Made by a program: the position numbers and the translations under genes. DNA of 64,000 nucleotides from Amyelois transitella. Taxonomy: Eukaryota; Arthropoda; Insecta; Lepidoptera; Pyralidae. The stretch is from the NCBI RefSeq assembly GCF_032362555.1, contig NC_083505.1, positions 9,663,501-9,727,500 on the forward strand, given 5' to 3'. The notes beneath the pieces are model-generated. The model was not told the DNA's origin. It saw only the letters and a list, made by a program, of their open reading frames with translations, and ran no database searches. Within the stretch, counting starts at the first letter, position 1; each line of letters starts with the position of its first letter. Below, piece after piece: positions 1 to 27,400 of the stretch.

Positions 1-2646
1 TGGCCTTGGATGCCGCGGTTCTTGCCGGCCAGAGAGCCCAGCGAACTCAGCGGCGGCACCACGCCCGCCACCACTGGGCACTCCGGCTAGGGAACAATCA
101 TAAGTCAAGTCAAATCTATCAAATAGACAGCTTAAACAATTTCAAGTATATGAATATTAAAGTTGGAAATTTTTGTGAACGAAAATAAAGCTCAAAGGTT
201 CTTCTAATTAAATAAAATCTCGTAGTTGTTGGTTTGTCACAGATTGTCATGGTGATTGTGTATATGAACTGACCACCAGTCATTGTAGAGATTGGCCCGG
301 TTCGGGAGGGTATCCCAGAACCTAGCGTAGCGACAACACAATAGAATCGTCATAGGAGAGATCGGCACAGTCCAGCGTATCATAAACTACTGTCGCCGCG
401 ATACAACGACAGCGCTTGAGAACTTGCAAGATCCATCTGATTTAAAAACATTATACGTACGAGTATGATTAGGGTTGCTTTTTTTAACGTGTTGGCCATC
501 ATCGTCATCGTGGAGATCTGCCCGGTCCAGCGAGGGAGTTTTCGCGGTACCTGGCGTCGTCGCGACGACACAGTGACAGCAGGACGAGAATTGGTTGAGA
601 CCATCTGAACTTCTGGCTTTATGGAAGGGTATGGGTCATCGTACCTGTTGGTCATCATCGTCATCGTGGAGATCAGCCCGGTCCGGCGGCGGAGTGTCGC
701 GGAACCTGGCGTCGCGGCGACACAGAGGAAGCGGCACGAATAGAGCACGCCCCGGTGTGCAAGAAAATACGCGCGAATCTCCACGCGTGCCGTCGCCTAA
801 GCCGCATACGCTCTGCTCGAGTTCCACGCCGGCGGTCATTGTCTCTGATAATAATATAGGTACCATAAAGTTAGTATTCTTAACACCATAAATCTTTATA
901 TACTTCGCTCTTCTCTTTCCTTCTTGCTTACTATTTTCTTTCTCGTCTAGGGCACCAAGTCAAAGGCCAATGGCTTGGTATTGGAGTTTATTAGAAATAG
1001 TCACTGGTTCTCTAAAGCCGCTTACTTATTTATGGCATTACTTAATTTTTCTTGTTATCAAGCATTATAGTAACCATTACAGCCACCAACATTTTGAGAT
1101 AATTTCACAAGGTTTCAAACGTTTTAAGTAAAAAGGTAAGTAACCTTTGGGTGAACTTTAACTTGATAAACATACCTACATAAATTATTGGAAAATAAAT
1201 GTCTTTACCATCAATCATCCCAATCCATCGTACAACACCATAGTAATGTTGATCAACATCCGTGGCCACTTCAACTAGCGATCCGACTCCGATATCTTCT
1301 TGCAGTTGAAGTGGCGAAGCCCTGGAAGATGCTACCGGCCGCGGGGAGCCAAGTGCTGGCGAATCGTAAACCTCTTCGGGAGCATCACCGCCGCAAACAT
1401 CTGCGAAATTGGAAAAATCTATACTAATTTTGTACAGAGGAGTTTCATTGATTGTTTGTAAGGGTTAATCTTCGGAAATACTGAATCGGCCATGAAAATT
1501 TATACATGATTAATAATATAAAGGTTCGGGCAAAGCCGTGGCGGGCCGATAGTCCATAAATAAACAAATATTAACGATAGATCAGACTGAGATAACGATA
1601 AAGTATGAGCAGCACAGCAATATGTGTGTAATGGTAATGAGATGGTAATTCAATGATAGGTATACTATAATATTTAACTTAAATTATTCAAAATATACAC
1701 ACTTTCTTCTAATTCAAAAACACAGAGAGGCACTTCGTTGAGATCCAATTCCTGTAAATACGCGTACGACATTTTTCAGGGCACACTCGTTATAACAGCC
1801 GGCCGGCCGTCTGCTACGCGCCGCTAATTTTAGAAACTAGGAAAGCTAAAATAGGACAACCTATGAACAGTTTTTGTTTAACCGGTGCTGCAGTGTTGTG
1901 TTTACTAATTGTTAAGGTGTGAAGTCTAATAAGAATGGTAAGTTGATTATTTATTATAAATCCATAATTTGGTGTAATAATTTTACTATTGTACATACAT
2001 ATATTAACCCTGTCTATATCTGTATAGCCATGCAACATGCATATACATATACAATGATTTATTTTCTCAATGTCATATAGGCATAACACTGTTATGCGGC
2101 TTAATTGGCTTCTGCTTATGACTTTGTTCATGTGGGAATTTCTAGGAATAAAATAAGCAAATACTGTTCTGGAATCTACTATGCCAAATTTCATCTAAAT
2201 CAGTATGATGTTGTTTCGGAATTTATTTTAGATATATATATAGATAGATATCTCTTCTCTTAATTATTTCGCCAATTATTTTTTTTATTGCAGATTTTAA
2301 TAATTTTTTTTTTAATTTCTTGTTTTGACATTGACATGGTTTTTTAATGTTCCCAATACACACCAACTAGGATGCCCGTTTCCACTTTCTTGGGTTCTTG
2401 GACCATTTTGCTCTTTGGTCTTGTTTCTTCTGCAGGGGTTTGTTGTGGGGCTGTATGTGTTGTTCTGCGACGTCGCTCCGGCGCTAGGTGTGCGATAAGG
2501 TTTAGAGATTTCACTCGCTCATTCTGCGGTGAGCGCTGCATAGTTCGCCTGGGGCTCCTGGGCACTGATCCATACTCGGGGCGCTCGGGCTCACGAGGGG
2601 CTGGTGGCCAACTTCCAGCAATGAGGTTGAATAGGTCAATCTGCGA
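1..2646 (-). CDS. CYLD: CYLD-like deubiquitinase, partial (C-terminal part lies beyond the left edge)
   Basis: CYLD is a USP-family deubiquitinase that trims Lys63- and Met1-linked ubiquitin chains and restrains NF-kB/Imd-type signalling. Four exons read leftward: 2646-2364, 1400-1209, 844-645 and 86-1, with compatible phases (0/1, 1, 1/0, 0). Exon 2 carries the start of the last CAP-Gly domain (GVGSLVEV, then YGVVRWIG). Exon 3 continues it (AGVELEQSVCG, then FSCTPGRALFVPL and CRRDARF). The exon at the window edge ends in GKNRGIQG, the lead-in to the USP catalytic Cys box, which is itself outside the window. Exon 2646-2364 is basic and Pro-rich and is assigned by splice phase only. Its donor (TTG|GTGTGT) is ordinary, and upstream exons were not found. 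The intron after exon 3 holds degenerate copies of that exon's 3' end. Identity is confident; the 5' structure is not. Confidence 0.88.
268..575 (-). repeat. Three decayed copies of the 3' end of CYLD exon 645-844
   Basis: Reading the minus strand, segments at about 570-490, 415-358 and 340-268 each resemble the last 75 or so bases of the exon ending at 645 (Cys-Arg-Arg-Asp run, then Asp-Arg-Ala-Asp-Leu and an acidic tail). The first copy keeps GATGACGATGATG but has small indels. The farthest copy still reads in frame in part (LCCRYARFWDTL against LCRRDARFRDTP). Spacing is irregular. None has a good acceptor of its own, so they are treated as non-coding relics. Confidence 0.7.
1703..1772 (-). 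other. Possible alternative first exon of CYLD
   Basis: An ATG at 1772 opens a short reading frame (starts MSYAYLQELDL) ending at a GAAA|GTGTGT donor after 1703 in phase 1. That phase would join correctly to the CYLD exon beginning at 1400. I do not recognise the peptide, and the frame otherwise stops within 32 codons, so this may be chance. Confidence 0.2.
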
Positions 2647-2679
2647 CTGAAAAATAATCCCAACTAATATTATAAATGC

Positions 2680-3025
2680 ATAAGTTAATTTGTTACCTCT
2701 TCGTGCATTATCTACTGAACTGAACCAACTATAAGGTATCTTTCATCCCAGCAAAAACTATAGTTCCGTGGGATTTGCGAAAAACGTGTATTCTTTTGTA
2801 GGCACTTCATTCGTGGCTTTTTGTAGGTGGTGTTTTATTTGTTGCTTTTTGGTAGGTAGTGAAAGTGAAAGTTGTTACCTCTTCAGTTTAACCACTGAAC
2901 TATTCTGCATGAAATTTTACATGCATATAGGGTGGAGTACAGAGATGGACACGGGATTTAATCCCAGTAAAAAGTAAAGTGATTTATGAAAAACTTGTAT
3001 TTTTTGGTATGTGGCATTAATTGCC
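2680..3025 (+). repeat. Tandemly doubled Lepidopteran interspersed repeat
   Basis: Two diverged units of roughly 190 bp follow each other. Each begins with TTGTTACCTCTTC and ends with GAAAAAC(G/T)TGTATT. A third relative is at about 55040-55080. This looks like a non-autonomous mobile element; its class is not determined. Confidence 0.5.
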
Positions 3026-3235
3026 AGGTTGACGGAAAAAGACCTAGAGGTCGCAGCCCTACAAGATGGTCGGATCAAATCCGATCGTCACTAAACACCG
3101 ATCTCCATAAGGCCCTCCACGACGCAAAGGATCGCAACAGGTGGAAGGAAGAGATCAAAGAGAAAGTGATTCGGCGGGGGAGTCACGACCCTCAGCAATG
3201 AGGTATACGACGCGAGGAGGAGGGCATTAATTGCG
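3025..3235 (+). mobile_element. 5'-truncated non-LTR retrotransposon, 3' end of the coding region
   Basis: The plus strand encodes GKRPRGRSPTRWSDQI, then DRNRWKEEI and RRGSHDPQQ before a stop at about 3201. This arrangement (basic GRP, RWxDxI, DRxRW, HDPQ) is typical of the C-terminal tail of insect LINE polyproteins. Reverse transcriptase and endonuclease are absent. Confidence 0.65.
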
Positions 3236-4774
3236 CACAGGCAAAATTGCAGTAAAAAAAAGCTAAACCTATAAAATTAACACAGTTTTAATTTAAGATG
3301 GCAACAGGAAGATACACATTGCCTTACCACCTGTTTTAGTTTTTTTTTTTTACATATAACCAAACAAGTTTTAAAACATTGCCTGAAAACACAGATCTTA
3401 TACTTTTCATGGACTAATAAAAAGTAATAGCAAATTCATCAGTGACACAAAAGCTGTATGTAATGTTAGTTGCTGGTGCAAACACATAGTGCCTTCCCAC
3501 AGTTAGTAAAATGACGACCACAACAGTAAGATCTTTAGTAGTATGAAGTCTCATGAATGTCTTAACACTAAAACAGATTTCAATAACTACCTATACATAA
3601 TATCTAAGTTTACTGGAAATCAGTCTAGTATGCAAAATATAGAATAATTAAGTAGCTAATTTAAAAGTGTAAAACTGAAAATAATAAAAATTACATAAAT
3701 AACCATGTAACTTTGGATATAAAATCTCAATTGAATTATTTTTTTTTGGCAAAACTTTTAATTACAATATTCTCCTCTTTCAAAGCACCAATGGTAATGT
3801 TAGTGACTCAATATATATTTTTAAATATTTTTCAAAATAATTTATTGTGAAATAGGTACGTGCGGTTAGAACAAATTCAAGAAATTTTATGATTTTAAAC
3901 CTGTGTACTTTGATTGCTGTCTGTTTCTCCATTTCCATATTTCTTTTCATCACTCATTATTTTGGCTAAGACCGTCAACTACATTGATGATAAATATACT
4001 GTTTCTAAAATGCAAAATAAAGAAGTTTACAAATATAGTGTTCGTAACAAGAAGAAAAACAAGGAGTAAGGTACCTTTATAACTTTGTTATATAGATTTC
4101 ACTAACCTGTGAGTAATTTTACAGATAAGTTTAATTAAAGATTTGAAAGTGATTCTAAAGATTTTCGACCTTCAATTTTAAAAACCGAATACTTTGTATT
4201 GCATGGATTTTTGGGAAATGTTATCTTCCAAAAATCCTATTCAAGTAAATTTTTGTAGGTACGTAGGTATTTTGTCAAGATTTTGATTTGACAACATAAA
4301 CTAAGGAAATAAAATAAATTGACAATGACACAAGTAAGACACGCCACGACGCACAAAAATCTTTGCTTTGCTTGCAAGTTCACAGATATTAAAAAGAACA
4401 ATGTCAATTTGACAATGAACCATGAACGTACATTCACAGTCAAAAGCGTTTTCCTATTTGTAACTCGGGATCAGAAAGGGGGTGCTACAGTTTTTAAATA
4501 TTTGTTTGGTATGTGATGTTTTGACCACACCCTGGACACTGCCTTATCTGCCGATCAATTACATATTTTAATAAATGTTGTTCTTACTCCTACAAACAAG
4601 CTCGTAAAGGCAAACGCGTGCTTGAAGGCTAGACCTACGGTAATGATGACCTTATACTTTATATTTGAACTTGTAATAGGGGCGTCAAATTAATTTTGTG
4701 TTCTTTTATCTATACCTACATACTACTCTGTCAAGAAAGTAGCAGGAAAAGATCAATAATACACAAACTGTTTG
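3236..4774. other. Spacer between CYLD and the mariner; no gene seen
   Basis: AT-rich sequence with short stop-riddled frames on both strands. No exon with family similarity or convincing splice signals was found. CYLD 5' exons or its promoter could lie here unrecognised. Confidence 0.5.
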
Positions 4775-5848
4775 TTATTCATCCAAATTTATTTTATCAC
4801 CTTCAAAATATGCTCCTTTAGAAACGATACACTTACGCCAACGAATAATCCAATCATCAAAACATTTTTTAAACGCTGTTTCCGGAATTGAGGTCAGTTC
4901 TCGCCGCGAATTCTCTTTTATGTCTTCTACCGATTGAAAACGGGTGCCACGAAGTGGTAATTTGAGTTTAGGAAAAAGAAAAAAGTCGGCTGGAGCCATA
5001 TCTGGTGAATATGGTGGTTGCTCGATGGTATTTGTTGAGTGTTTGGTTAAAAATTCGTTCACAATGATGGCCTTGTGCGAAGGTGCATTATCATGGTGCA
5101 AAATCCAAGAATTTTCTTTCCACAAATCTGGCCTTTTTCGTCGGATTTGCTCTCTTAAACGCCGCATAACACTCAAATAATATTCCTTATTTACCGTTTG
5201 ACCTTCCGGCAAGAATTCCGAGTGCACAACACCGCGATAGTCAAAGAAAACAGTCAACATGACTTTGACTTTTGAACGACTTTGGCGTGGTTTTTTCGGT
5301 TTTGGTTCAGTTGGAAGGCGCCACTCCGAAGCTTGTTGACTAGTTTGCATGTCAAACTCGTAAACCCACGTCTCGTCACCAGTAACAATGCGTTTCATGA
5401 ATGTTGGGTCGGAATTGACTCGTTCTAGCATGTCCTCAGCGACTCTCATGCGATTGAGTTTTTGAAAAAAATTCAGGTCTTTTGGGACTAGCCGAGCGGC
5501 AACATGTTTCATACCCAAATTATTAGTTAAAATGGTACGGATCGACTCGTGAGATACAGAAAGTTCGGTGGCTATCTCTCTCAAAGTTGAATGAGGATTT
5601 TCAGTCACTATTTCCTTCACTTTTGCGATGTTAACTTCAGTTGCAGACGTTGATGGCCTACCAGAGCGAGGCAAATCTTCCATCACATCTCGACCGCTTT
5701 TGAACGCTTTGTACCACTCATAAGCACGAGTTTTTGATAAAGTCGATTCACCGTAAGCCTTCTGTAACATTTTCAGTGACTCCGAACACGATATTCCATT
5801 GGCAATGCAAAATTTAAGACAAACTCTTTGTTCGATGTTTTTATCCAT
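4775..5848 (-). mobile_element. Mariner-family transposase, apparently intact
   Basis: An uninterrupted 357-codon frame from ATG at 5848 (MDKNIEQRVCLKF) to a stop at 4775. A longer in-frame start 25 codons upstream is hydrophobic and probably not used. The N-terminal half has the paired helix-turn-helix DNA-binding region with the GRPSTS linker. The catalytic triad is visible: Asp in TGDETWVYEFD, Asp in HHDNAPSH and Asp in YSPDMAPADFF. There are 34 residues between the last two, which defines mariner (DD34D). Length matches active mariners (about 345-355 aa), with no frameshift or stop, so the insertion is young or still capable. I could not pair the terminal inverted repeats: the left end near 4725-4750 and the right end near 5930-5975 do not match convincingly. 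Confidence 0.92.
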
Positions 5849-5923
5849 TATGAAATTAGCAATACACACTAGATATGATATAACTAAAAATAGCACTGTA
5901 TTTAATGTAAACAACAGATGCAA

Positions 5924-6381
5924 CTCAAACTCCGCGCCAAAATGGAAAACAGTTGTGCCAATCTAACAACAACAAAAAAACAAAAATTTGAATTTGGAAC
6001 CATAAATAAATAATCCATTCCCGATACTTTTCTGACTGAATGTATAATGAAACAGTAAAAATATTTTGTCTGTACATTGAGTGTTTTTGACTGAAATGGA
6101 TAAAGGGACACTTAGAATGAATAATAGAAAGCAGAAATATATTTTTTAATTTCTTGTCTGTCTGTCTGTCTGTAAGTATGATCACGATTATCTCCGAAAG
6201 TACTGAACCGATTTACTTAAAACAAAGCAATTGGTGAAAGTTTTAACTCAGAAAAACATTTAAAGTTTGTTTCATCAAAATCGGTTCACTAAAAAAAAAG
6301 TTATCGACATTTGAATGAACTCAAGGCATGAGTTTGCCTGCAAATAAGTTACGAAATTTAAAATTCAAAGTCATTTATCTT
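5924..6381. other. Repeat-derived spacer right of the mariner
   Basis: Contains a (GTCT)n-bearing segment (about 6060-6180) resembling other copies at 7290-7400, 47380-47410 and 48160-48190, followed by a 'tactgaaccgattt' type repeat body. No gene seen. Confidence 0.5.
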
Positions 6382-6712
6382 TTAAGATCGGAATAGGTAG
6401 ATTGAATTGGGGTCAATGAACTGAAACGTATATATAATATGGACATGCCTCCGTCCGGGATTGCGGGATTTGAAAATTATTAAGATTTTTTCCGGAATTT
6501 TTACAAGTGGGATGAAGAATATATTAGTGGTAGCTGTTTTTCCCCGACTTCGTTCACGTAAATTGTAGTCCTATGTTACCCGCGGACAATGTAGTTTACT
6601 GTAAGTGTAAGTACTGAAATGGAATCCCGGAAAAGAGGCTTATCCATGTTATGCTTTCTATGGTAATTCATGATGCAAGTACATAAAATAAATCTACCTA
6701 TTCCGATCTCTG
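6382..6712 (+). mobile_element. Non-autonomous hAT-like MITE, copy 1
   Basis: A 331-bp element bounded by inverted repeats of about 20 bp (inner sequence GATCGGAATAGGTAGATT at the left, its complement at the right). It is flanked by near-identical 8-bp repeats (tttatctt, tttatcat). An 8-bp duplication is characteristic of the hAT superfamily. A second copy lies at 48232-48569. No transposase is encoded. Confidence 0.8.
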
Positions 6713-6823
6713 TTTATCATTGTATAAATATAAGTGAAAATCAGTTTGATAATATTCTGGTTTTACCGTACATAACATGCGTAATTCTCACGTAAAAAGT
6801 TTTTGGTTTGTTAGTCTACTTTA

Positions 6824-7080
6824 GTACCGTGTGGTTCTCGGCATCAATACAAAAAAGAATAGGACCACTCCATCTCTTTCCCATGGATGTCGTAAATGGC
6901 AACTAAGGGATAGGCTTTCAAACTTGGGATTCTTTTTTAGACGATCGGCGAGCAACCTGTCGCTATTTGAATCTCAATTCTATCATTAAGCCAAATAGCT
7001 GAACGTGGCCATTCAGTTTTTTCAAGCCTGTTGGTCTGTCTACCCCGTAAGGGATATAGACGTGACCATATGTATGTATG
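6824..7080 (+). mobile_element. SINE-like retroposon with a perfect target-site duplication
   Basis: A 257-bp element beginning CCGTGTGGTTCTCGGCA and ending in (TATG)n. It is flanked by identical 12-bp repeats, TAGTCTACTTTA, at 6812-6823 and 7081-7092. This is the reference copy for many others here: about 9963-10184, 16851-17080, 34293-34572, 42352-42482, 54552-54812 and partial copies. The 3' end (CTACCCCG, GGGATATAGACGTGA, TATG repeats) resembles the 3' tail of the LINE fragments at 27782 and 31324. Confidence 0.85.
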
Positions 7081-7107
7081 TAGTCTACTTTAATTTCACA
7101 ACATCGC

Positions 7108-7180
7108 AACGGCCTCGATGCTCCAGTGGTTGGCGCGTGAGACTGTGAAAATTGACGGTCCAAGTTCGAGCCCCAATAAA
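7108..7180 (+). repeat. tRNA-derived SINE head (RNA polymerase III boxes)
   Basis: GGCCTCGATGCTCCAGTGGT resembles the 5' part and A box of a tRNA. GTCCAAGTTCGAGCCCC, about 40 bases further on, resembles a B box. It cannot fold as a full tRNA, so it is called a SINE relic. Confidence 0.5.
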
Positions 7181-7794
7181 AACAAAATGTTTTTTTTATT
7201 AAAAATATTTTTTTAGAGTTGTTTGAGTATTTTATTTTAAAAAAAAAACTGAAAATCAAAATACTACATAGGTACAATAAAAAGGGTAAAAATATTTTGT
7301 CTGTACATTTAATATTTTGACTAAACGGATACAGACAGACGAACAATGTAAATATTTTTTTTATATTTCTTTGTCTGTCTGTCTGTGTCTGACTGTATGA
7401 TCACAAACACTTACGAACACTTTCGTTTTCGATAATACATTTTTGTTTTTGATTGTTGTTGTATCATATGTTTGTTTTATTTATTCATTTCATCTGTCAA
7501 TTTCAATTTATTCTGTGATCTGTTTGTGGTTTGGTACATTTTGTGGTATATATGTGACCTTTCAATGTCGAGAAAGCTTAATTCTCGTTCTTCGATCTAG
7601 TTTAACAAATTACTTGAGACTTTTATGTATGTAAAATGTCCTAACGCTGTATTGTTCTGCTAAATATTTAATATTTCATAAAGAAGAAAAGTTGGTACCA
7701 TATTATGTAAATATCTTTTTCTTCAGTAGATTACATTGATGTTCCGTTAACCTCTAAAATTGTTATATCCATTTTTCAGGCTGCAACAGACATA

Positions 7795-10700
7795 ATGATT
7801 CGTCAGGGGAGCATAGATGATATTAATGCTCATCAGTTTTTAAAGATTTCAAACTATGAAGACACCGTAAGGCAGCTTGATATATACTATGCTATTGGTA
7901 TGTATGACTGTTATCTTCCTATTTTCTCACCAAGCCAATGATTTACAGTGAACTAAAATTTGGCTGCTTGATTGTTCATTAAGATTTTAGAAGTAGTAAT
8001 CATATTTTTAATTTTTCTTTTATATCTTTATATTTTTCAGTAAAAAGACAGCTATTGAGATTTCAAAGTCCAATAACTGGTCTGTTTCCCGTCATATCAT
8101 CTGATCTCCATGTGGCCAGTGTGAGGGACAGTATATATTGTGCATCTGCAGTATGGGGACTCTACCAGGCCTACAGGTATAATTTTCAATACCATCAGAG
8201 CAGTAAACAGTAGAATACAACTTTTTTGTTATCATAATTTGATTTCAAGAAAATGGAATAATGTGTTCTGCCTACCCTACTAGGAAAGAGGCACAATTTT
8301 ATGAAGTATATTGAATTAATAACAAATTGATACACCAATTGCTTATTTGTTCCAATAAAGTTCATTTTATTGCATGGCTTTTTGTAATACATTGAATTAA
8401 AAACAATTGCTTGTTTTATAATGTGGAATTAAAAATGTTTACCTTATAGACGTATTGATGATGATCGGGGAAAGTCTCATGAGTTAGGCCAAAGTACAGT
8501 GAAATGTATGCGTGGCATCCTTGAGTGTTGGGTGAAGCAGTCTGCAAGGGTGGAGGCTTTCAAGACACGACAGAGCGCAGCACACTCTCTCCATGTTAAG
8601 TTCCACCTCACTACAGGCGAGCCTGTGCTGAGTGATGAAGAGTATCATCACTTGCAGATAGATGTTGTGTCCTTGTACTTATTATTCCTCGTTCAGATGA
8701 TTACTTCAGGGTTGCAGATTATTTATACACAAGTATGTGTGCCCATAGTATGTTATTGTAAATTTTTTGAAATGCTCAAATTTTTGTATGAATTAATATA
8801 TTTTTTTTACTTACAGGATGAAGTAGCATTTGTGCAAAATTTAGTTTATTATGTGGAGCGTGCATACAGAACTCCTGATTATGGAATGTGGGAAAGAGGC
8901 TCTAAATATAATGATGGAAAACCTGAAATTCATGCTTCCTCTATTGGTAAATGTTTAAAGTATTTTGATGTGTCTTTCTTTTGGCATTCACCTTGTCTGT
9001 AATGGTGTATTTTATTTTTAATTTTAGGTATGGCCAAGGCTGCCTTGGAAGCAATTAATGGCTGCAACTTGTTTGGAGACAAGGGAGCATCTTGGAGTGT
9101 AGTTTATGTTGATATTGATGCACACAATAGAAACAGAAGTATATTTGAAACTATGCTTCCAAGAGAATCTAGTTCTAAAGTATGTAATTACTTTTGATAT
9201 AAGTTTTTCATAATATACTCTTTTATATATTTAATGTATTTTTATAATGTATAATAAAACATAAGTAAATGCTTATTATCTCTACTAATATTATAAGTGC
9301 GAAAGTAAATCTGTATATCTGTGTACGCTTTCACACCTAAACCACTGGACTGATTTTAAAGAGGGGATGAATGATTGTCAGTAAACTTTTACCGCATATG
9401 ATGTTATGGGCAACAGCGAGTATATTATAAAAGCTTAACTTTGTTTAGTGATTTGTCCTAAACATTTGGACAATACCAGTTGTTGAGGTACTTATAAGAT
9501 AAAGATATTACATCTCCTAAACTAGTTCTCTAAAATATGTTTTTATATTAACAGAATTATTATTCACAAACAACAGATCAATCGATTACATTTAAAGTTT
9601 ATTGATATTTTTATTGCAGGGTGTAGATGTCGCCCTACTACCCACCATATCATTCCCAGCCTTTGCCACACATGAAGAACATTTATTGCAATTGACAAAA
9701 ACAAACATATTACGGCGACTTAAGGGAAAATATGGTTTTAAGCGGTTCAGCCGTGATGGATACAAATGTGTTCTTGAAGATCCTAACAGGAGGTACTATC
9801 ATGAAGGAGAATTAAAGGAATTTGATGGCATTGAGTCGGAATGGCCTTTGTTTTATGTCTTCATGATCATTGATGGCGTTTTTCGGACATTACCTGAACA
9901 AGTGGAGGAATATCAGAAACTATTGAAAAATAGAATTTACATGGACGAATTCGGAGGTAATCATACATACATATACACATATAATCATCCATATATCCGT
10001 TGCGGGGTTGACAATTGGCTTAGTAATGGAATTGACATTCAAATAGTGACAGTTTGCTAGTCCATCGCCTAAAAAAAGAATCGCATGTTTATAAGGCTAT
10101 CCCTTAGACGCCCTTAACGACATCCATGTGAAAAGAGATGGAGTGATCCTGTTCTTTTTTGTAATGGTGCCGGGAACCACACGGCACATGGTGGTTAATA
10201 TACTTAAACTCCTCCAATAGACTGAACACCAACCGACACCTTATATTGTAGGTATAGGTTGTAAAATGGTGTGTATATTTATTTATTTTAAAATTTTACA
10301 GATCCTGTTATTCCTTGGTATTATTACGTTCCGCGTGAGGGCATCGACAATGAGCGTAGTGAACCCAACTCAGTACGAAGGGTACCTGCAAGTAAGTTGC
10401 GTTACATCAAAAATATCTTTAATCTTTTTAAATAAAAAAAAATATATATTACGGCAACAATCACTATAAATGTTAATGTGAAATATCGATCAGTGCCATC
10501 ATTGAGAAGGGGCGCATTTGATAAATTTTTATTCTTTCAGCTCTCGTATAATGTGTTATACAAAAATAATATGTTAACATACATTTTAAATTCAGCTGAA
10601 CAATCTATTGTATAATAATTACAGATCACCCGGCAGATAATGAAAATAAAGGTAAAAGCAACTATCAGTAGGCAAATCTTTGTTTCATCTGATCTTCTGC

Positions 10701-16700: not shown

Positions 16701-18894
16701 ATTATAGTAAACGTAAGTAAGCTTCAAAATATCTGTTAGCCGATACCGACTGGCTAACGCTTTACTTCAATAAATATTGTGACAATAATCATGATATTTA
16801 TTGATGTATCTTAGGCTGGATCTCAGCATACCCTCGATCTTTTTTCGATCCATACACACATATAATCACGTATATATCCCTCGCGGGCTGGACAGAGCCA
16901 AAATCTTGGAAAGCCTGATAGACCACGTTCAACTGTTTGGCTTATGATAGAATCGAGATTCAAATAGTGACAGCGATTGCTAGCCCATCGCCTAAAAGAA
17001 GAACCCTAAGGCTTTTGAAGCCTATCCCTTAGACGCCTTTTACTACATTCAAGGGAAAGAGACGGAGTTCCATCTCATTTGAAAATAAAGAAATATATTT
17101 TTAACGTTTTGTTTGGCACAGTGGTAGAATTCCTGCCTCTGACCATAGGTTCGAATAAATCAATCGGATCAAAATCGTGATGGAAAGTTCGTTTGTCTGG
17201 TATTTTTTTTGACATTAATTTGAGTTGTCTGTTGCAGGGCCACTCCATCCCAGCAGATCCGACGCTAGTGAACATGTCACGATCAGAATTGTCTTTCGCG
17301 TTGTTAGTAGAAGAAGCGTTGGTTCGGATCTCTCAGCCGGCGCGGCGCCAACTCTGCGTCGAATTACTCTGTGTCGTCGCCACTATACTGCGCCGTAATC
17401 CAGAGCTTTGTTTACAAGAGCCGCTAGACTTGGACCGTTTGTTGGATGATGCGAATTACACTTACGCAAAGGTAATTTAATGTTCCATTGATTTCTTTTA
17501 AATTTTGTTAACTCTTAAACTGTCTTTGCCATCATTCTGCGTCATAATCAAGAGCCGTTAGATTTGGACCGTTCGATACATGACGAGCACGTCAGCTAGT
17601 ACATATATTTCGAAGTTTTTCTTTATTTAAATTGGGTCAACTTTACTTGGAGTTGCTCAGTGTCCCTAGCATAAGATATGTATCATCCGCAATATGCACA
17701 GATAAACCCCAATCGGGCTATGTGACATGCACTACCTACATGTTTTACCACCTACCAGTTTTTTGCATACAATAGGCGAACATACACAAATTCACAATCG
17801 TTACAAACCGATTCTGCAAAATATTTGATTTTATTTTATTCTCATCTGTGGTTGGTGGTTGGCTTGTGGTAGGTTGGGATCATAATTTCATAAAAATCTA
17901 TTGTGCGTTTAAATATTTTATCAATCATGAACAAAAGAATAATTATTTAAATTTTTATACTTTCGATTTTGCTTATGACACCGATAACGATTCCAATTAG
18001 GTAGTTCCACACAAACCGAGTTTATTGCAACTGTTATCGAATATTGATTAAATGTCGTTGACATAATACCTACCAAAACTAGTAATAGTTTTCAAGCAAT
18101 TTACTATGATTTAATTCAACTACAAAACGTAGTTGAAATAATGTTTAGATAGTTGTCACATTGAGGTCCATGCTCCGAAGCAGTGGCGTAGGCCGCAATC
18201 GGGAAAATGTGATACCTAGACAGTTGTCACAAAGAGCCGTGTGGTTTTCGCCAGTATACATAGAACCACTCCAAATTAATCCGTGGAAACCCTAAAAGAT
18301 GATCTGGCTTGGTTGTGGTCTGGATTTCGGTCGCGGTTGTTGCGGAAGTCTCTAGCCATGCGATACGAGTTTATCATGCAGCCTTAATAGCGTTCATTAA
18401 TACTTATCAGAAAGATAACATTGGAATGGATAATATACCTGTTTCCATTCTTTCTCATCATAGCAAATTTCTGATCACATTTTCTGATAGTTGGCCTTAA
18501 AATGAATGACTCGCTTATGCTCACAATATAATATTAGCGTAGACTAAACTTTGCGACTAGTCTACGCATCTAATATTCTTATAATATTCTAAGCTTCGCT
18601 CTCAGGGATCTAGCTTCTGAGCACGGTCGAGAGCTACTGAAAAGTAGCCCACGATACATAGTCTATATCCGTGTATCCGATACACGAATCACTCACACAA
18701 TAATCACCTGATAACGAGATGCCAATCGCCCCACACAGGACAGCGGGCTGAGCGCGGAGCCGGGCGCGCTGGCGGCGGCGGCGGGCGGCGCGGCCGTGGG
18801 CAGCCTGGCGCGCGCCGTCGTCAACCGCGTGCTGCAGGCCGCCGCCGCCGCCGACCTCGTCTCCACCGCGCACCCCTCGTGCCTCGTCTCGTGA
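7795..18894 (+). CDS. PHKB: Phosphorylase b kinase regulatory subunit beta
   Basis: PHKB is a large regulatory subunit of phosphorylase kinase, which activates glycogen phosphorylase in response to cAMP and calcium. Coding exons: 7795-7897, 8041-8176, 8450-8732, 8817-8946, 9028-9179, 9620-9956, 10302-10391, 10625-10651, 11357-11505, 11946-11963, 12689-12808, 13098-13208, 13357-13484, 13666-13841, 14150-14412, 14879-15037, 15367-15492, 15950-16173, 16598-16712, 17238-17471, 18739-18894. They total 3237 nt (1078 aa; human about 1093). Beta rather than alpha is shown by [34 protein letters not shown] and YGIQTQTP. The N-terminal part is the glucoamylase-like domain. The protein ends CLVS, a CaaX-type prenylation signal as in the mammalian subunits. 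The frame stays open upstream of the chosen ATG to the acceptor at 7780, so the true start may lie in an unseen exon. Two microexons (27 and 18 nt) and one GC-AG intron are predicted. Confidence 0.95.
9283..9435 (+). mobile_element. Helitron-like repeat fragment in a PHKB intron
   Basis: Begins CTACTAATATTATAAGTGCG and continues with the 'acctaaaccactggactgattt' body typical of abundant Lepidopteran non-autonomous elements that end in CTAGT. It is diverged and truncated. Class is by resemblance only. Confidence 0.5.
9963..10184 (-). mobile_element. SINE-like retroposon copy in a PHKB intron
   Basis: Reverse-oriented relative of the element at 6824-7080. It runs from (CATA)n at the left to GGTGCCGGGAACCACACGG at the right. 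The middle is intact but diverged. Confidence 0.75.
10625..10651 (+). other. PHKB: 27-nt microexon of PHKB
   Basis: AATTACAG acceptor, 27 nt, then AAAG|GTAAAA donor. It joins in phase on both sides and yields NHPADNENK between VRRVPA and GGLFLW, where the family has a short variable linker. Without it the flanking exons still share phase, so it could be skipped. Confidence 0.7.
11658..11822 (+). mobile_element. CTAGT-ended Helitron-like element in a PHKB intron
   Basis: Starts CACACTAATAATAAAGAG and ends GTGCAGAAGCTAGT. The internal 'ctactggactgattttaacg' is shared with other copies in this window. About 165 bp. Confidence 0.55.
11946..11963 (+). other. PHKB: 18-nt microexon of PHKB
   Basis: CACAG acceptor, 18 nt encoding AKYSAP in phase 0, then a consensus GTAAGT donor. 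It sits just before the [10 protein letters not shown] exon. The family varies here, so alternative inclusion is plausible. Confidence 0.6.
15060..15335 (+). repeat. CpG-dense insert and retroposon-like tail in a PHKB intron
   Basis: About 15080-15180 is unusually rich in CG for an intron, with repeated TATCGC, CGCGATA and TCGCGCG motifs. The part to 15335 ends TTTGAAATAAATCTATTTCTATTT, split into A/T-rich runs like the 3' tail of Lepidopteran LINE-related elements. Probably one mobile element; class unknown. Confidence 0.4.
16851..17080 (-). mobile_element. SINE-like retroposon copy in a PHKB intron
   Basis: Reverse-oriented relative of 6824-7080. The diagnostic CTATCCCTTAGACGCC and GATTGCTAGCCCATCGCC blocks are present. 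The 5' end is eroded. Confidence 0.7.
17111..17160 (+). repeat. tRNA-Gly-like SINE head in a PHKB intron
   Basis: TTTGGCACAGTGGTAGAATT followed by CCTGCCT closely resembles the 5' half of tRNA-Gly. GGTTCGAATAA 20-odd bases later resembles a B box. The two halves do not form a complete tRNA fold, so this is a SINE or tRNA relic, not a tRNA gene. Confidence 0.55.
17522..17590 (+). repeat. Decayed copy of the 3' part of PHKB exon 17238-17471
   Basis: The segment matches the exon's CTGCGCCGTAATC, AAGAGCCGCTAGA and TTGGACCGTTTG blocks with scattered changes and one deletion of about 16 bases. It ends before the exon's donor. It lies about 50-120 bp past that donor. Confidence 0.75.
18234..18300 (+). 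mobile_element. 5' fragment of the SINE-like retroposon
   Basis: GAGCCGTGTGGTTTTCGCCA and AACCACTCCAAA match the head of the 6824-7080 element. The body is missing. The rest of this 1.27-kb PHKB intron shows no further gene signal. Confidence 0.5.
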
Positions 18895-19507
18895 ACTCTA
18901 CTTCCTAGATATACATACAGCGGAGTAAAACTTTCGGAATCGACCGCCATGAAGACTGATCCGCAGACCGACGGTGTTTATTGGAGATTGTTTTTGTTAT
19001 ATTCTCTAACTAGTAGAAACTTTGATGACAAACGTGTCAAACGTCAAACAAATTTTTATCAGTTCCTCCAGTCCTTCCAGTTATTGTGGGTAGTAAGCAC
19101 ACAGTCGATTTAGCAAAACCAATATTTAACTACCCAAAGCTGTGAGGGGCCAGGTGGAACTATTCAAAAAAAGACATGTAGAATCTTTATTAAAATTTAG
19201 AAATATGTATACATTGTTATCGTTCGTTAAATTTTGAAGATAAGGAATTATTGACGATGAATATTTGTGATATATAATTTAAAAATGTATAATGAAGTGA
19301 TAATTTTTTTAAAAAACAGTAATTGAAAGTAACACACTGAGTTAAGGCACTTTAATTGGCATAGTTCCTCTTAATGAATTTATTTTACTGAAGTATTAAA
19401 TTGTGCCATGAGACATAAAAAGCAAATTGTCATTAATATTCAGTATATTATTTTAATAACAATATATTTTTTATATTTAAACAAATATTTATTTAAGTAA
19501 TCAAGTA

Positions 19508-19513
19508 AATAAA
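19508..19513 (+). terminator. Candidate PHKB poly(A) signal
   Basis: AATAAA about 610 bp after the PHKB stop, followed by a T-rich tract. It implies a 3' UTR of roughly 0.6 kb with no other gene in it. Confidence 0.5.
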
Positions 19514-19575
19514 AGAATTTTTTTTCCAAATATTGTTTCATTTATGATAAAAACACCATAGACTGGGAATTGGAG

Positions 19576-19581
19576 TTTATT
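19576..19581 (-). terminator. Candidate DNAJB11 poly(A) signal
   Basis: AATAAA on the minus strand about 130 bp after the DNAJB11 stop. It lies 62 bp from the opposing PHKB signal. Confidence 0.5.
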
Positions 19582-19711
19582 TTACAAAACAATCATGTAT
19601 AACACAATACTTGGCCTCACACCGATACTCACAGAAAGTGACTTTGTTCATTTCATACCATTCACTGCACACAATTCACTACTTAAAAATAAATAATTGG
19701 AAGTATTGCTA

Positions 19712-21873
19712 CTATAGTCCATTGTATATTTTGTTATTTGGCGCCTGCTGAAGTATTTTTCGCAATGCTGGAAAAACAAGAAAAACATGGGTCTTAATAA
19801 AATACTTTTAGATCATAAAAATACTAGTTGCATTTTATCGATATAATCACATAGAAACCTTATTTTTCAGGCCAGGATGCAAGGTGTCCTTCTCTTTCTT
19901 AGTACACATGGCTCAGAAGATACCTGAGCCATCTCTCAGTCCTCCTATACACTACTCATTCTGAGGTGGCAGAGAGGTAAATCCTGAGCCCACCATACTC
20001 GTATGTGTGTGTATTTGTATAATATGAAGTGAAAAACCTCCACTTTTTTAATATGTATCTCACCTTCTTTTTCTTCATCAGTGAAGTCCTGCTTGGGGAA
20101 TTCAATGTCGAAAGTGACATACAAATTGCCGTGGAGGTTGTTGTTCTCGAAGTTGGGCATCCCCTCGCCCTTCTTGCGCACGCGCGCGCCCGCCCACGTC
20201 ACCTTGTCGCGGGACACTGTCACTTTGTGGCCGTCCAGATGATTCAATTCTAGCGTAAAACCAGTGAGAGCATCCTGCAGTCAAAAATATTGGTGTGTAA
20301 AATATTACCAATATGAAACTGAAATAGATAACTTTTACATGGTTTCAATTCAATATTGGTAATGATTGTTTTAAAATATCAGAATTTCTTTGGCTTTGGG
20401 AATCAGGCCTTCCTCCTTTTTTGATTGTAGCTGATAAAATATATCAACCTATCTATTACTCTTGTCCTTGGTTGTTGGAGAAAAGAAAGGATTTTTATTA
20501 CTACCAGAGGAAGGTACCATGACTATCTGATAGTATATATACATAGTATGATAAATATATGTGCATAGAGAGATATCACAGTTATGAATAGGCGGCAGTA
20601 TAAAAATCAAGATAATTCTTTTGAGATTAATGTCACTATTTCTATATTACAAATCAAAAATATAGAACAGCATTACATAAATTGGTCAAACTTTTGCCAA
20701 CCTGTAATGATATTGTAACATTGGTGTACAAATCATCCCCCTTCCTTGTATAATGTGGGTGTCTTTCTGTCCTGAACACTATGACCAGATCACCTGGTTC
20801 ACCATCAACATGGGGTTCACCTTCACCTCGAAGTCTAAACTTGTGTCCATCAGGTGCACCAACTTCAACCTGGAAAAACAGACATAAGCATTATTATTAT
20901 CTATTAAATGAAATAGGTCAAGGTATTACTTGTTGTCTATAGATATACCACAATGTGTTAATGTTCATGGATGTTTGATTAACTAAGGCATCATTGTTCA
21001 CAAAAGTTCAACTTCTGTAGAAAATTGGGATAAGAATATATTAACATTTTTATACTTGTTGTGCCAGTCTTTAAAGAAAATCTTATAAATTTCTGGAATT
21101 TTTTTTAAGGCTAAATGTTGTACCTCAATCTCCAAAAGTCTTTCCTCATTAACAAACTTGACATTAGGGCATTCATCACACACTGTCTGCTGCATCATCT
21201 GGAATCGGCCTGGCCCCAGGTTTCTGGTGACCATTTCTTGACGACAATTACATTTCCTCACACCAGAAGCAGCTTTGATTACTGGCTTATTACGAGTTAT
21301 CTGAAATGTATGCAAAAATTTATTTTAATTTGAGCAATCTTATTGTTTTTTTTTCTATGTAAAATGCAATTAAATTTAATTCTCATAAAAAAAATTGTAG
21401 GTAGAATAGTAGTAGATACTAACTTCTACGAAGTTTCCATTGTAAAGTTCCTCTAACGAGACTGTGAGTTCCATTACGACGTCTGCGCCGCGTGGAGCTT
21501 CTTGCTGTTGCTGTTCTCCACCAAAATGGAAGCCAAAATCTCCAAAGAAGCTCGCAAAAGGATCGTTGTTGTTCATCATACCATCTTTCTTGAGACAGTC
21601 TTCGCCGCAACGATCATACAGTTCTCGTTTCTCAGGATCCGACAACGCTTCGTATGCGGCTCCAAGGTCTTGAAACTTTTGAGATGCATTAGGATCATCT
21701 TGATTTTTATCTGGATGAAGAGCTTTAGCTAACTTTCTGTAAGCTTTTTTAATTTCGTTTGTAGATGCTGAACGCGAAACACCAAGGATTTGATAAAAGT
21801 CGCGGCCGGCAAGTGATAAAATTATAGCACTCATAAAATATATTAAACACACGTATGCAGCATTGCTGAACAT
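19712..21873 (-). CDS. DNAJB11: DnaJ homolog subfamily B member 11 (ERdj3), ER Hsp40 co-chaperone
   Basis: ERdj3 is a luminal ER Hsp40 that binds unfolded clients and passes them to BiP. Exons: 21873-21424, 21300-21124, 20869-20702, 20274-20064, 19767-19712; 1062 nt, 353 aa (human 358). A hydrophobic signal peptide occupies about residues 5-22, ending before GRDFYQILG. The J domain follows, with the HPD motif at residues 53-55, then a short Gly/Phe segment ([10 protein letters not shown]). The substrate-binding domain contains the ERdj3-specific Cys motifs KCNCRQ and CDECPNVK. The C-terminal domain reads [17 protein letters not shown] and ends KIYNGL. There is no KDEL tail, as is normal for this protein. 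The stop faces PHKB; the start faces PSMB7. Confidence 0.97.
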
Positions 21874-22440
21874 TTTGTGATATTGCCTAGGAACTAGAGG
21901 ATAAAAGATATAAAATAGAAGACCAAATTCTTCATCAGCTCAACACATTTCGCCCATTTGACACTAGATAGATTTGATATGACAAGGTTCATGTGTGTAG
22001 AACTGTAGACAATTCGTCTTGTTTTGATTGGTTGCGTTTCAGTCTCAAATTGAAAACAACCTATGTAACAGTCATCTGATTGATTTTTAATTTTATTGCT
22101 ATGAAAATTAGAACTCTTTCCCTCTTTCAACTTACAGCCTAATTCAGCCAATCAAATTCAGCCTCGTACAGCTCAATGTTACTAGAACTAAAAATTATTA
22201 GCAAGCTACAATTTGTGACTGAAGTGATATGTATAAAATCGTTATCGAATAATGTTGTAAGCTTCTGTTCTGCCTGTTCAAAGCTTTATAGAGTTTATGT
22301 CATGAATTTCCTTCATTCGTTTCATTCACTCTTTGACGTTTTGAAAGTCATTCATTGACAGAGTGATACTAAAATTTTGTGGAATTGCAAACAGAAGTTG
22401 TATATTTATCAAAGACTTCTAATTTGTCTAATTTCTAAAC
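21874..22440. promoter_or_regulatory. Shared head-to-head promoter region of DNAJB11 and PSMB7
   Basis: 567 bp separate the two start codons, with no other gene between. The interval should contain both 5' UTRs and both promoters. I see no clear TATA box or heat-shock element, so this call rests on geometry alone. Confidence 0.6.
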
Positions 22441-24081
22441 ATGGCATCTGTTTTAATTCCTGAAATACCGGAACCAGGATTCTCTTTTGAGAATTGTCAA
22501 CGGTAAGTACCTACCTACTTCAAATAGTTTTGGGTCAATTCAACATGATTTGTAAGTTTTGTATTTTTTTTTATAACATGCTTTAATTTCCTTCCAGCAA
22601 TGCCTTCTTAGCTCAAAAAGGGTTTCCAGCCCCGAAAGCCACAAAAACCGGCACGACCATTGTGGGTATTATTTATGCGGATGGGGTTATCCTGGGTGCT
22701 GATACTAGAGCGACAGAAAACACAGTTGTTTCAGATAAAAATTGCCAAAAAATCCATTATTTGGCTGGTAACATGTACTGCTGTGGTGCTGGAACAGCAG
22801 CCGACACTGAGATGACGACTCAAACTGTGTCGTCACAACTGGAACTGCAGCGGCTTCACACTGGGCGCACGGTTCCCGTGCAGACGGCCGCCACCTTGCT
22901 AAAACGAATGCTATTCCGCTACCAGGGCCATATTGGCGCCGCCCTCGTGCTTGGAGGGGTAGACCGTACTGGACCTCACATCTACTGTATTTATCCTCAT
23001 GGTTCAGTGGATAAGTTGCCATATGCGACTATGGGTAAGAGTCTTTAGTTTTCTTGTTTAATGATTGGCTGCTTTATCAAATCCTATAACGTCCCAGATA
23101 AGAGTCTTGAAAGATAATGTAAAAAAAATAAGGACAATCTTTATTAGGACTAGATTTACAACTTTTAAGAAAGTGTGGGATTAGCTATGGACTTGTAGTC
23201 ACCTGAGGATAACAAGGTACTTGCTGAGCACTGAAGATGACCAAAGGCGACGGTCTAGGGAGTGCTTACAAAGGTTCCTTGGGCAGTGAAGAGGGGAAAG
23301 TTTAGGCTATCTTGATTGATCCCCATATTAATTAGGATATTATAAATTAGGTACTGTTCTGACTTAGTATGTTTTGAGCAACTTTCTATGGCAGACAAAG
23401 ACATGAATGATTGTCTGATCTTTCATCTTATCTAACTTCTAGGATCTGGTTCTTTGGCTGCTATGGCTGTGTTTGAGTCTGGCTGGAAACCTAATATGAC
23501 TGAAGAGGAGGGCAAGAAACTAGTTCGCGATGCAATTGCTGCAGGTATCTTCAACGACTTGGGGTCTGGCTCCAATGTGGATTTGTGTGTAATTCGTAGC
23601 AGTGGCCCAGCACAGTACCTCCGCACATATGAAGAAGCCAATGTCAAGGTATATAAGTATTTAGCAATAACTGATCACATGATAATTTATTTCTCAATTA
23701 TGCAATAGGGAAATACACCAGATTTTGAAATTGTGTAGCATTTTTTGAGCTTTGAGACTGTCATCAATTTTTAGGGCCAGTAAATCTATTTTAAATTGAG
23801 AATTAAGTTGCCCACTGGGGTGAAGAATACATAGTAGAATAAAGGCTCAACCTCGTGCTTAAACAATTCTATTACTTTAGGTTCTATTGGCTTCATAAAT
23901 TTGCATCTTCATGTTTATATTGTTATTTTTGTAGGGCAAGAAACAAGGATCCTACAGGTATGCCCCTGGGACTACTGCCGTTCTAAAACAGCGAGTAATT
24001 CCACTTGAAGTAGAATCAGTAGCTGTGCATGCAGTGTCCAGGGCACAGCCAATGGAAGTGGAACCCTCATCCAGCCGTTGA
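22441..24081 (+). CDS. PSMB7: Proteasome subunit beta type-7 (beta2, trypsin-like)
   Basis: This is the beta2 catalytic subunit of the 20S proteasome, cleaving after basic residues. Exons: 22441-22502, 22598-23034, 23443-23648, 23935-24081; 852 nt, 283 aa. A 39-residue propeptide ends in KTG, exposing the nucleophile Thr (residue 40, [11 protein letters not shown]). Counting from that Thr, Asp17 and Lys33 are present in ADTRATEN and NCQKIHYL. Other family signatures are [37 protein letters not shown] and [13 protein letters not shown]. The C-terminal extension that wraps the neighbouring subunit is present (GTTAVLKQ to the end). A poly(A) signal, AATAAA, is at 24106-24111. Confidence 0.98.
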
Positions 24082-24105
24082 TCTTAATTTTGTGTAAATT
24101 TCCGA

Positions 24106-24140
24106 AATAAAACTATCATTTTGTAATATAGTCTTTTATT
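24106..24140. terminator. Opposed poly(A) signals of PSMB7 (+) and POMT1 (-)
   Basis: AATAAA on the plus strand at 24106-24111 and AATAAA on the minus strand (TTTATT at 24135-24140). Their predicted cleavage zones overlap. The interval up to the POMT1 stop at 24477 would be POMT1 3' UTR and shows nothing else. Confidence 0.5.
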
Positions 24141-24476
24141 TATATAAAAAATATATTTCGTTTAAATTGGATGGATAAATTGGACGGATTCATAGTACTT
24201 ATAAACCATTTTAACATACATAACACCATTCATACTGTACTTTTATAACTAGGTATTATTACTACAAAAAATCAGTTCCATTTATTTGAGATTCAAATGA
24301 GTATTCAAGGTGATGTGCTGTGGTGTGACAGGTATCTATCGTTTTAGTTCTTCCTTAGAGATACATTATCTAACACTAAGAACAGTTACAAATACTTTAA
24401 TACTTGCTTTAATTTACGACGAGAAAATACAATGGCAGCATTGAAAGAAGATTAAACTGAATTTAAAATAAACTCA

Positions 24477-27400
24477 TCATTTTTTATGAAGTATAAAATC
24501 CCAAGTGTCCTTCCATCTTAGATTCACGAGGTCACTTTCAGTCATATCAACATTTCCATAGTTTAGAACACTGAACTTCTTAAATGTAAGTACAACATAC
24601 GCCAGCCAGACAACTATACATAAAATAAATACGGGTATTAATCTGTGCGTATTCTCACGCAAATTAATAATGTAAAAAATATGATCTATAACAAAAGCTA
24701 AGAGAAGTATTTTAAAGATATAAGCAGGTAGATAATGGTGTAAGAAAAGAGTGCGGTCCATGAAGAAGTATGGAAGGTAATGCAGCCAGTATCCTAGGAA
24801 CAGGACATAAGCTGCATCGTAAAATTTTTGTGAAGCGCTGAGCGGCAAGTCCTCACACGCGCGACGACGGCGGATGGCGTACACGGCGAGAAAACCTCCG
24901 AACACGATGACAGAGAACGTGCCAGCGTACCACGTCACCAAGTTGCCGATGAGATGAATTTGGGCCTGAAAAAATACGTTATGTGCAAAACATTAATGAG
25001 CACTAACTGTCGAAGGCACGAACTGAGTGACTTAAAAAACAGGTTCTTTATTAATTTTCTTGATTGCAAGACGAATTATACCTACTCTACAATCTACATA
25101 TTGCTCGAATATAAAATGATATATTCTGTAAGAGATTCAATATTGATCATAGGTAATGTACCCACATATATATGTATTCAGGTATCGACAAAAAATGCTG
25201 GTTATTTCTGTTTTAAATATTTGTATCCAATTTGTTCAAACCTACGACGCTTAAGTATTAAGCAGCAATTAAAATACAGTACTAACATTAGAGTTAGGCG
25301 AGAGCCAGTAGGCTATGGAGCGCACCAAGAGCGGCCACTCGGCGGGCTCGCTGGCGAACATGTGTCCGTGCGGCGCGTCGGGCGCGTGCGCCACCATCTT
25401 GTGTTGCAGCTCTAGAAACTTCTCCCAGAACGAGAGCTGCGTCGCGGCCGTCGGGATCATCTCCGCAGAGACTAGCTCGCGTTCGCGCTCCTTCCTATCT
25501 TCAGCTGAAATATTAAGGGAACTATGTTTAAAATCCCAAATAGTAAGGGAGTGAGCTATGGTATCAACATTTCAAAACTATCTAAAGTGTTTGTTTTACC
25601 GTTCAACTCTCGATTTTTTTTTATTTTTATATATAGTATTTTTATATTTATACAATAAATACCTTTTGTGTATCGGTGCTCCTCAACATTCCAGACAGTA
25701 TCTTGGTGTGTCAGCACTTTATCGGCCACGACCTCGTGCTGATGGAAGCCCCACGGCGGGAGCTGGCGGCCGCTGTAGCGCAGGGCGGAGCCCGAGTCCA
25801 CGTGCACGAGCCGCACGAGCGAGCGGATGCTGTCCCACGTGGCGTCCTCGCTGTCGCGGTTCACGATGTCCACGCGCCAAAGGATCTGAGCCGGCATCGA
25901 TACGTTGTAGTCGATGTAGCAAGACACTTCCTGCGAAATAACAAGTTGAATTTAACGATGTGTAACGTCTAACGGCTGGATACAATAAGTATAATGGTGG
26001 AATACAAACATAAGAGGACATAATACACTCATATGTATTTGACGACTTTTGGTATACACAAAAAGCAACAATTATATAATAGCGATACGATGTCAACTTC
26101 CAGAGATATACAGGGGTTATTTTTTTCTGCAATCAGCAACATAGGACTATTAGAATAAATGGTCTACCTGCGACTTTGGCGAAACGGGCGCAGCTACATC
26201 ATAATTGAGAGTTCTGCTGGTGATAACAGTATCACAAGTATATAATAACTATTCAAGTGTATAATAATAACAGTATAGTAACTAGCTTTATGGCCATGTT
26301 AAATGGCATAACATCTACCCCGCAAGAGAGATAGACGTGATTACATGTATGTATCTATATGTCTATTAGTAAGCCAAACAGCTGTTCGTGGCCTATCATT
26401 ATCTTGAAGACTGTTGGCTCTGTCTACCCCGCAAGGGATATAGACGTGATTGTATGTATGTATATGTATAAAGGATATATATGTTACCTGCGACTGTGGC
26501 GACACGGGCGCGGCTACGTCATGAGAATTGAGCGCTCTGCTAGTGATGCCGTGAAGTAATTGCACTACGTCGCCATGCCGGATGGCGTCGGGCGGCCGCG
26601 CCACTGCCAGCGACGCTTGCTCGGGCCTCTTGACGATCCACCAGTTGTTGACGTCCTTGAAGCTGTAGCACGTCACTTGTTGCTGGTGGGAGGAGCCGCG
26701 CCCGTCTGTGTACCGCACGGGGTACACGTGCGCGTGGGAATGTAGCCAGCAGGTGCGCCCGTGTGTGTGTCTGGAAATCAATTTTGATGCTTTATTATTT
26801 TTTATAAAAAGGGTCTTCTTCTTCTCCTGGTTCCTGTCTTCTCTTTGGTGGAGGGTTCTGCCACTGTTTTTTCTTATTAATACGATTGGAGTACTTTTCA
26901 AAAGATAGTACATTTTCTTTTAATAAATAGGAAAACTCTCATTACTAAAAATGATCTTAACTAACCTCAAGGTAATTTGTGAGCCATGTGCTACATGTAA
27001 CGGTTGTCCTCGTGTTATACTGGCCAGTCCGCCTTGCAAGGAAGCCTGGAAGGCGCTCGTCATCACGCTATCATGAGGACCAGCCTTTGGCAGCATGGCC
27101 AAGTGAGCGTAGAACACGGACACATACACTCCTAGAGGTATCACAGTCAAAATTATCAGCCGCCAGAGTGCAGATAACACTAATAATAGAGTAGATTCAG
27201 CATTTCCTATTTGTTTCCATATCTGACGCCCGACAAGAAAAAGTGCCAAGTAATATGTGTACAGTCCAGAATATTTTACCCTGCAATTAAAATTGTTTAA
27301 TTTATTATAATAAAAAAAACAGTTTATCATGTGTAGTGTCTTGACAAATATTAAATAGCAATTATTTATATGTATACAGCACAGTATTTCAAAAAATAGA

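Follow-up and report, generated by a model that had tools for sequence, protein, structure and literature searches.

Small duplications that take in part of a gene have been described in several settings. For flies, PMC2891723 cites Emerson et al. for 1901 duplications in 15 lines, mostly tandem and with a median length of 367 nt, 624 of which hold some exonic sequence and no whole gene. PMC2671141 describes local repair-mediated duplications (RDs), together with the 'doublets' of Thomas et al. 2004 as cited there. Tandem duplication is also reported to have produced introns, in the potato RdRp gene (PMC4974935) and in near-intron pairs of Drosophila (PMC2891723), and tandem exon duplication, with part of the intron copied, has been tied to mutually exclusive exons (PMC6071210). 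Exonize, as described in PMC12343006, sets a lower limit on the share of the query exon that a copy must cover, and partial copies are therefore expected to escape it. Here we analyze such partial copies, found in the introns that follow exons of CYLD, PHKB and POMT1 in the moth Amyelois transitella. The sequence comprises a 64-kb stretch of contig NC_083505.1 (9663501-9727500; hereafter the window) and 250 kb of neighboring sequence, 314 kb contiguous in all.

These cases belong to a known kind of mutation, and a possible asymmetry between the donor and acceptor sides of exons is the sole part worth following; that asymmetry goes unstated in the titles or abstract openings of the literature searched. 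Like the fly population duplications of PMC2891723, the copies appear to be short tandem DNA duplications able to include part of an exon. The fly duplications segregate, whereas the present ones, known from a single assembly, are older, are built of smaller units and, where linked to exons, all lie downstream. RDs and doublets likewise place local copies within less than 1 kb (PMC2671141), but as captured pieces inserted at a break, while four of the present loci carry intron copied in register beside the exon part. Intron gain by tandem duplication likewise duplicates a segment bearing a splice site (PMC4974935, PMC2891723); in the present cases, by contrast, no intron was gained and an extra donor lies inside an existing intron, and the potato RdRp event, in which an upstream intron-exon structure was duplicated, is of the acceptor-side type. 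Whole-exon tandem duplications (PMC6071210; Exonize, PMC12343006) share the within-gene tandem arrangement and the partial inclusion of flanking intron, but the copies described here hold part of the exon only and lack the acceptor.

To survey exon flanks, we predicted exons with an ab initio finder that was seeded with 14 stretches chosen by hand in the window and then self-trained, which gave 204 exons scoring above 3; because the set arose in this way, false exons are present in the denominators below. Each exon was aligned, in direct and inverted orientation, with the 1500 bp on either side at a threshold of 34 bits, and exons paired with unrelated flanks served as the chance control. Genes were identified by comparing predicted proteins with Pfam and PDB sequences. 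Positions are window coordinates throughout, negative values and values above 64000 lying outside the window on the same contig.

The survey revealed 13 direct matches before removals, compared with about 0.33 at the same threshold in a full control set (204 exons, two unrelated flanks each). After removal of dependent matches, six clear downstream copies and one weak one remained across the 314 kb, with no independent copy upstream. Four of these cases, including the weak one, lie in the 250 kb outside the window. All seven are in direct orientation; no inverted downstream match of at least 34 bits was found within 1500 bp for the 204 exons, and inverted upstream matches occurred at two exons only (-179589 and 35917). 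The initial annotation had reported partial copies in CYLD, PHKB and POMT1, three of them in CYLD, with one common layout attributed to a local process. All these copies are present, the one in PHKB being weak by blast, and the layout of direct copies close to their exon recurs at the loci outside the window.

Each case very probably goes back to one or more tandem duplications of about 117-156 bp and has since decayed; the two breakpoints would lie inside the exon and 20-60 bp past its donor, in the next intron. Duplication of a unit made of the exon 3' part, the donor and the intron start would yield the order exon, donor, intron, copy, donor, intron. The original exon, its acceptor and the first donor would stay whole and upstream and be spliced as before, and the copy, hidden in the intron, would decay neutrally. 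Replication slippage or end-joining repair are candidate molecular routes. Because the tandem unit spans the exon end, the copies lie downstream, run in direct orientation, derive from exon 3' sequence and in most cases include a donor. Since tandem geometry forces a downstream copy devoid of the exon 5' part, an RNA-based or directional process need not be invoked. The downstream excess noted in the initial annotation recurs, but the layout alone does not demonstrate the directional mechanism suggested with it. A duplication at an exon end leaves a 3'-part copy downstream only and one at an exon start leaves a 5'-part copy upstream only; the layout therefore follows from geometry, and the count does not.

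Extension of the copies into intron carries much of this interpretation. We tested it with an alignment anchored at the donor, six bases left out, against 2000 shuffles, which superseded a looser test with 500 shuffles. The intron part proved to be duplicated at 105618 (0/2000 shuffles reaching the score; 0/500 in the looser test), 100209 (0/2000; 0/500), PHKB (2/2000) and CYLD (57/2000), with alignments extending 47, 18, 46 and 50 bp past the donor, respectively. Lenient gap costs were applied for these extents; because they drew out the alignments of POMT1 and 105618 as far as the start of the exon, only the limits at the donor end were used for these two. Head-to-tail arrays at CYLD, 100209 and 105618 point the same way. 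The last two are exons of apparently one PDZ gene. Positions 105618-106145 form a tandem array, four copies in all, of 117-121 bp units consisting of the PDZ-exon 3' end, the donor and the intron start; the last copy is decayed and its donor lost. At 100209-100650, with an offset of 127 bp, the original is followed by one full and one partial copy.

The features of the three window loci are collected in Table 1. In CYLD, whose name rests on a PDB match (CAP-Gly chains matching query residues 3-53; the Pfam CAP_GLY match, E 4e-5, falls below the cut-off), copy 1 is the counterpart of the exon 3' part, with a donor decayed to CAC/GTTAAA (slash, exon-intron boundary). That the copied part reaches the donor in CYLD and POMT1, as first described, holds, with CAG/GT present in the POMT1 copy, and the CYLD copy goes further by carrying intron. 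Similarity between exon and copy is far above chance in CYLD and POMT1. In PHKB the blast core comprises 25 bp (17549-17573, E 0.023), but the alignment score is 40 and none of the 6 x 149 unrelated-flank pairs per side reached 30. The PHKB copy had been said to stop short of the donor; this is not clearly so, as the similarity passes the donor position, weakened to CTA/GTACAT, and continues into intron. POMT1 is identified by MIR and PMT domain matches. When exons 26488-26770 and 25663-25930 are translated as one, the product aligns to a PMT MIR chain across their junction with the copy skipped, and the copy is therefore unnecessary for the normal protein.

Table 1. Exons, partial copies and associated features at the three loci of the window.
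Feature	Position	Strand	Evidence and remarks
CYLD source exon (end of CAP-Gly, acidic linker)	645-844	-	ab initio score 31.9; donor CAG/GTACGA at 644
CYLD intron part of duplicated unit	588-644	-	counterpart about 430-486; anchored alignment
CYLD copy 1	487-587	-	82% by blast over 101 columns, E 3e-20 in window self-search; 86% of ungapped columns
CYLD copy 2 (approximate ends)	346-430	-	identity about 71%; one stop; frame broken by two gaps of 8
CYLD copy 3	279-340	-	75%, E 0.007; head to tail with copy 2
PHKB exon (C-terminal domain)	17238-17471	+	KPBB_C E 1.6e-11; phosphorylase b kinase beta chain of 8jfk; donor AAG/GTAATT
PHKB intron part of unit	17472-17521	+	counterpart from about 17599, after the copy; anchored alignment
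PHKB copy of exon 3' part (approximate ends)	17522-17598	+	gapped alignment: 15-bp gap, plus 4-bp and 2-bp gaps near the edges
POMT1 exon (MIR domain)	26488-26770	-	MIR E 6e-19; donor CAG/GTAACA
Interspersed repeat, 166 bp	26314-26479	-	between POMT1 exon and copy; starts 8 bp after the donor
POMT1 copy of exon 3' end	26165-26224	-	84% over 63 columns, E 1e-11; 3-bp gap; donor CAG/GTAGAC retained

In a search of the moth's own genome (327 Mb, 33 contigs, E <= 0.001, best candidates only scored), the CYLD exon matched itself and copy 1, and the PHKB query, exon plus copy, matched itself only. The POMT1 query matched itself and, at query positions 300-467 only, the interspersed repeat, for which there were 3179 first-look candidates, 40 of them scored. 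The same repeat was also recognized by eye near 16900-17060 and in the intron downstream of the exon at -169427; in two of the seven cases, POMT1 and (by eye) -169427, it separates the copy from its exon.

Outside the window, the locus at -82992 encodes a HOIP/LUBEL-like ubiquitin ligase (Pfam UBA_HOIP, IBR and RBR C-terminal matches), which we take to be LUBEL. The seventh, weak case at -169427 includes a second piece, nearer the exon and reaching the exon end, that was matched by eye only.

Several points limit the support for a uniform tandem origin followed by selection. Three of the seven cases were picked in the initial annotation, leaving four independent ones, of which one is weak and two lie in apparently one gene. 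The intron intervals were chosen after the copies had been seen, and in the looser test roughly 10% of shuffles reach the score for CYLD (49/500), PHKB (50/500) and LUBEL (44/500). The intron part of LUBEL is also weak in the anchored test (142/2000; alignment 35 bp past the donor), and the main match there is mid-exon, at 129-174 of 226; that of -169427, at 59-113 of 168, likewise falls short of the donor. At POMT1, intron homology past the donor is undetectable (582/2000 anchored, 175/500 looser), the lenient alignment extending 3 bp past it, plausibly because the 166-bp repeat begins so close to the donor. Subtracting that repeat would reduce the POMT1 spacing from 320 to about 154 bp, within the range of the other loci; the case for a tandem origin there is made by the common layout together with the closeness of the repeat to the donor (8 bp), and the copy may instead be a captured exon piece. 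Assuming a high duplication rate in insects also calls for caution, as only 2 of 50 polarized Drosophila insertions were tandem duplications in PMC4056370. Finally, copies at donors look commoner than the non-coding background, in which case neutral duplication plus a filter would be insufficient on its own.

The last point bears on the asymmetry itself. Before removals, nine exons had direct matches downstream and four upstream. Among the downstream matches we removed 105828, which belongs to the 105618 array as one of its copies, as well as -76591, which pairs with -76350, both being predicted coding and part of the C-terminal portion of the LUBEL-like protein. Upstream, -82734, 105828 and 105945 were removed as themselves copies, and -76350 as the partner of -76591. 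In the count per splice site, the same removals left events at 7/143 donors and 0/139 acceptors (9/145 and 2/141 before removals). With seven cases the sign test gives 0.016 and Fisher's test 0.015; with six cases the values are 0.031 and 0.030.

This asymmetry is most simply read as selection against duplicated acceptors, although the number of cases is small, the exons are predicted and they come from one stretch of one genome. After a donor-side event the true donor would still be the first one met. The mirror event, duplicating the intron end, the acceptor and the exon 5' part, would introduce a rival acceptor upstream of the true one, and such events would mostly be removed by selection.

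An unlikely explanation is a truly directional or donor-targeted mutational process, in which tandem duplication is commoner at 5' splice sites through, for example, transcription-linked breaks or GC-rich exon ends. The seven downstream cases with no independent upstream counterpart would suit it, and so would the comparison with background. Random non-coding anchors, taken on the + strand and downstream only, gave 34 matches in 4000, or 27/4000 once seven rows had been discarded that recorded the CYLD and POMT1 copies from the side of the copy; the rest amounts to 11 keys, which correspond to 8 separate loci, and P values were computed with both numbers. In a simulation with a mostly frozen exon, donors have a 1.6-fold longer detection span, and about 1.5 events are expected at 143 donors. 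At this correction, P is 0.003-0.004 for at least seven donor events and 0.009-0.011 for at least six. The significance fades, however, at a 2.5-fold correction (0.022-0.026 for seven, 0.053-0.058 for six) and at a 4-fold one (0.13 and 0.22), and the background rests on 8 non-exonic loci. Acceptor-side selection would moreover yield the same asymmetry, and zero acceptor events are unsurprising against background (P 0.24 at 1.6-fold). As donors exceed the background, the asymmetry may stem from a donor excess as much as from acceptor loss.

In line with ordinary tandem duplication, direct pairs outside predicted exons occur at offsets of 186 bp (96% over 195 bp, -151446 to -151066) and 175 bp (99% over 178 bp, 88716 to 89068), both young tandem duplications, and of 119 bp (77%) and 120 bp (71%). 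Further non-exonic direct pairs have offsets of 422, 477 and 444, the last being a 55-bp repeat of 91% identity (54386-54440 and 54830-54883), and two local inverted pairs were likewise detected.

Repair-mediated capture, by which nearby exon pieces would be inserted into an intron without tandem geometry (the RD or doublet type), is improbable as a general account. Proximal copies of at least 50 bp form a documented class, and the human set of PMC2671141 includes four partial exon/intron donors; capture would also suit POMT1, where no intron homology was detected. Four loci, however, carry intron duplicated in register alongside the exon part, and there are head-to-tail arrays, both of which speak for tandem duplication instead. 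Capture further predicts both upstream and inverted copies, whereas the independent direct matches are all downstream and the two inverted ones both upstream.

That the copies serve, or served until recently, as alternative exons is very improbable, although several of them do carry strong donors. Donor strength is 6.8 bits in POMT1, 7.9 in LUBEL and 9.8 in 100209, and 9.8 (in slightly shifted register) and 12.1 in the first two 105618 copies, against a median of 7.3 for predicted donors. The finder called some copies exons, mistakenly in our interpretation: -82734, 105828 and 105945 with scores of 7.9-9.2, and the POMT1 pseudo-exon 26168-26216 with a low 2.2. The main gaps of the PHKB (15) and POMT1 (3) copies are also multiples of three. 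On the other side, many copy gaps are not, including the 4-bp and 2-bp gaps of PHKB, the 49-bp POMT1 pseudo-exon would shift the frame in a protein that aligns without it, and donors are lost in CYLD copy 1 and the last 105618 copy and weak in PHKB, while those of POMT1, LUBEL, 100209 and the first two 105618 copies are retained.

Substitutions likewise argue against use as exons. Across 11 copies of six exons, mismatches at codon positions 1, 2 and 3 number 45/264, 30/264 and 58/259 (0.17, 0.11 and 0.22), and changed codons comprise 37 synonymous and 69 others with two stops, copies of the same array not being independent. Neither measure shows coding constraint on these copies, and the pattern is the one expected of a neutral copy compared with a constrained exon rather than of two constrained exons. 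An expected link between identity and donor decay was absent: CYLD copy 1 has lost its donor at 86% identity, and other copies of 83-88% retain theirs.

The assembly effect and the re-integration of nascent RNA, both raised in the initial annotation, can be set aside with near certainty, since the copies are about 70-92% identical to their source exons (about 8-30% diverged) with different changes in each, run unspliced into intron where this is detectable, form head-to-tail arrays of 3 and 4 units at two neighboring loci and, in POMT1, are separated from the exon by a high-copy repeat; nothing was found in favor of either, although no search aimed at poly-A tails or target-site duplications was made.

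Other features of the region were noted in passing. In the LUBEL-like gene, two adjacent predicted coding exons (-76591 to -76188) are about 70% alike over 111 columns with 26 bp between them, which may reflect an ancient internal repeat or an intron predicted in error. A mariner-type transposase open reading frame without internal stop lies between CYLD and PHKB, at 4775-5962 on the - strand (Transposase_1 E 9e-19, HTH_48); a search of 4500-6300 found no flanking inverted repeat of at least 20 nt. A low-complexity coding repeat with 21- and 42-bp units, rich in Lys, Asp, Arg and Ser, occupies 44576-44735 on the - strand, upstream on the same strand of an exon resembling that of a gene we take to be TOP1.

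Taken singly, the partial exon copies of A. transitella are ordinary duplication scars, and they advise caution with gene predictors, which may call such copies as exons. A broader generalization is tentative, and we regard it as possible rather than probable: tandem duplications across exon ends would be fixed almost only on the donor side, at about 4-5% of predicted donors, so that introns preserve duplicated 5' splice sites as fossils and 3' ones are purged, or else donor regions are real duplication hot spots. Purging of 3' splice sites would be expected if the first-transcribed site is the one chosen. Should the asymmetry hold genome-wide, it would offer an evolutionary readout of the cell's choice between duplicate splice sites, and the duplications would supply decoy donors as well as material from which new exons could arise.

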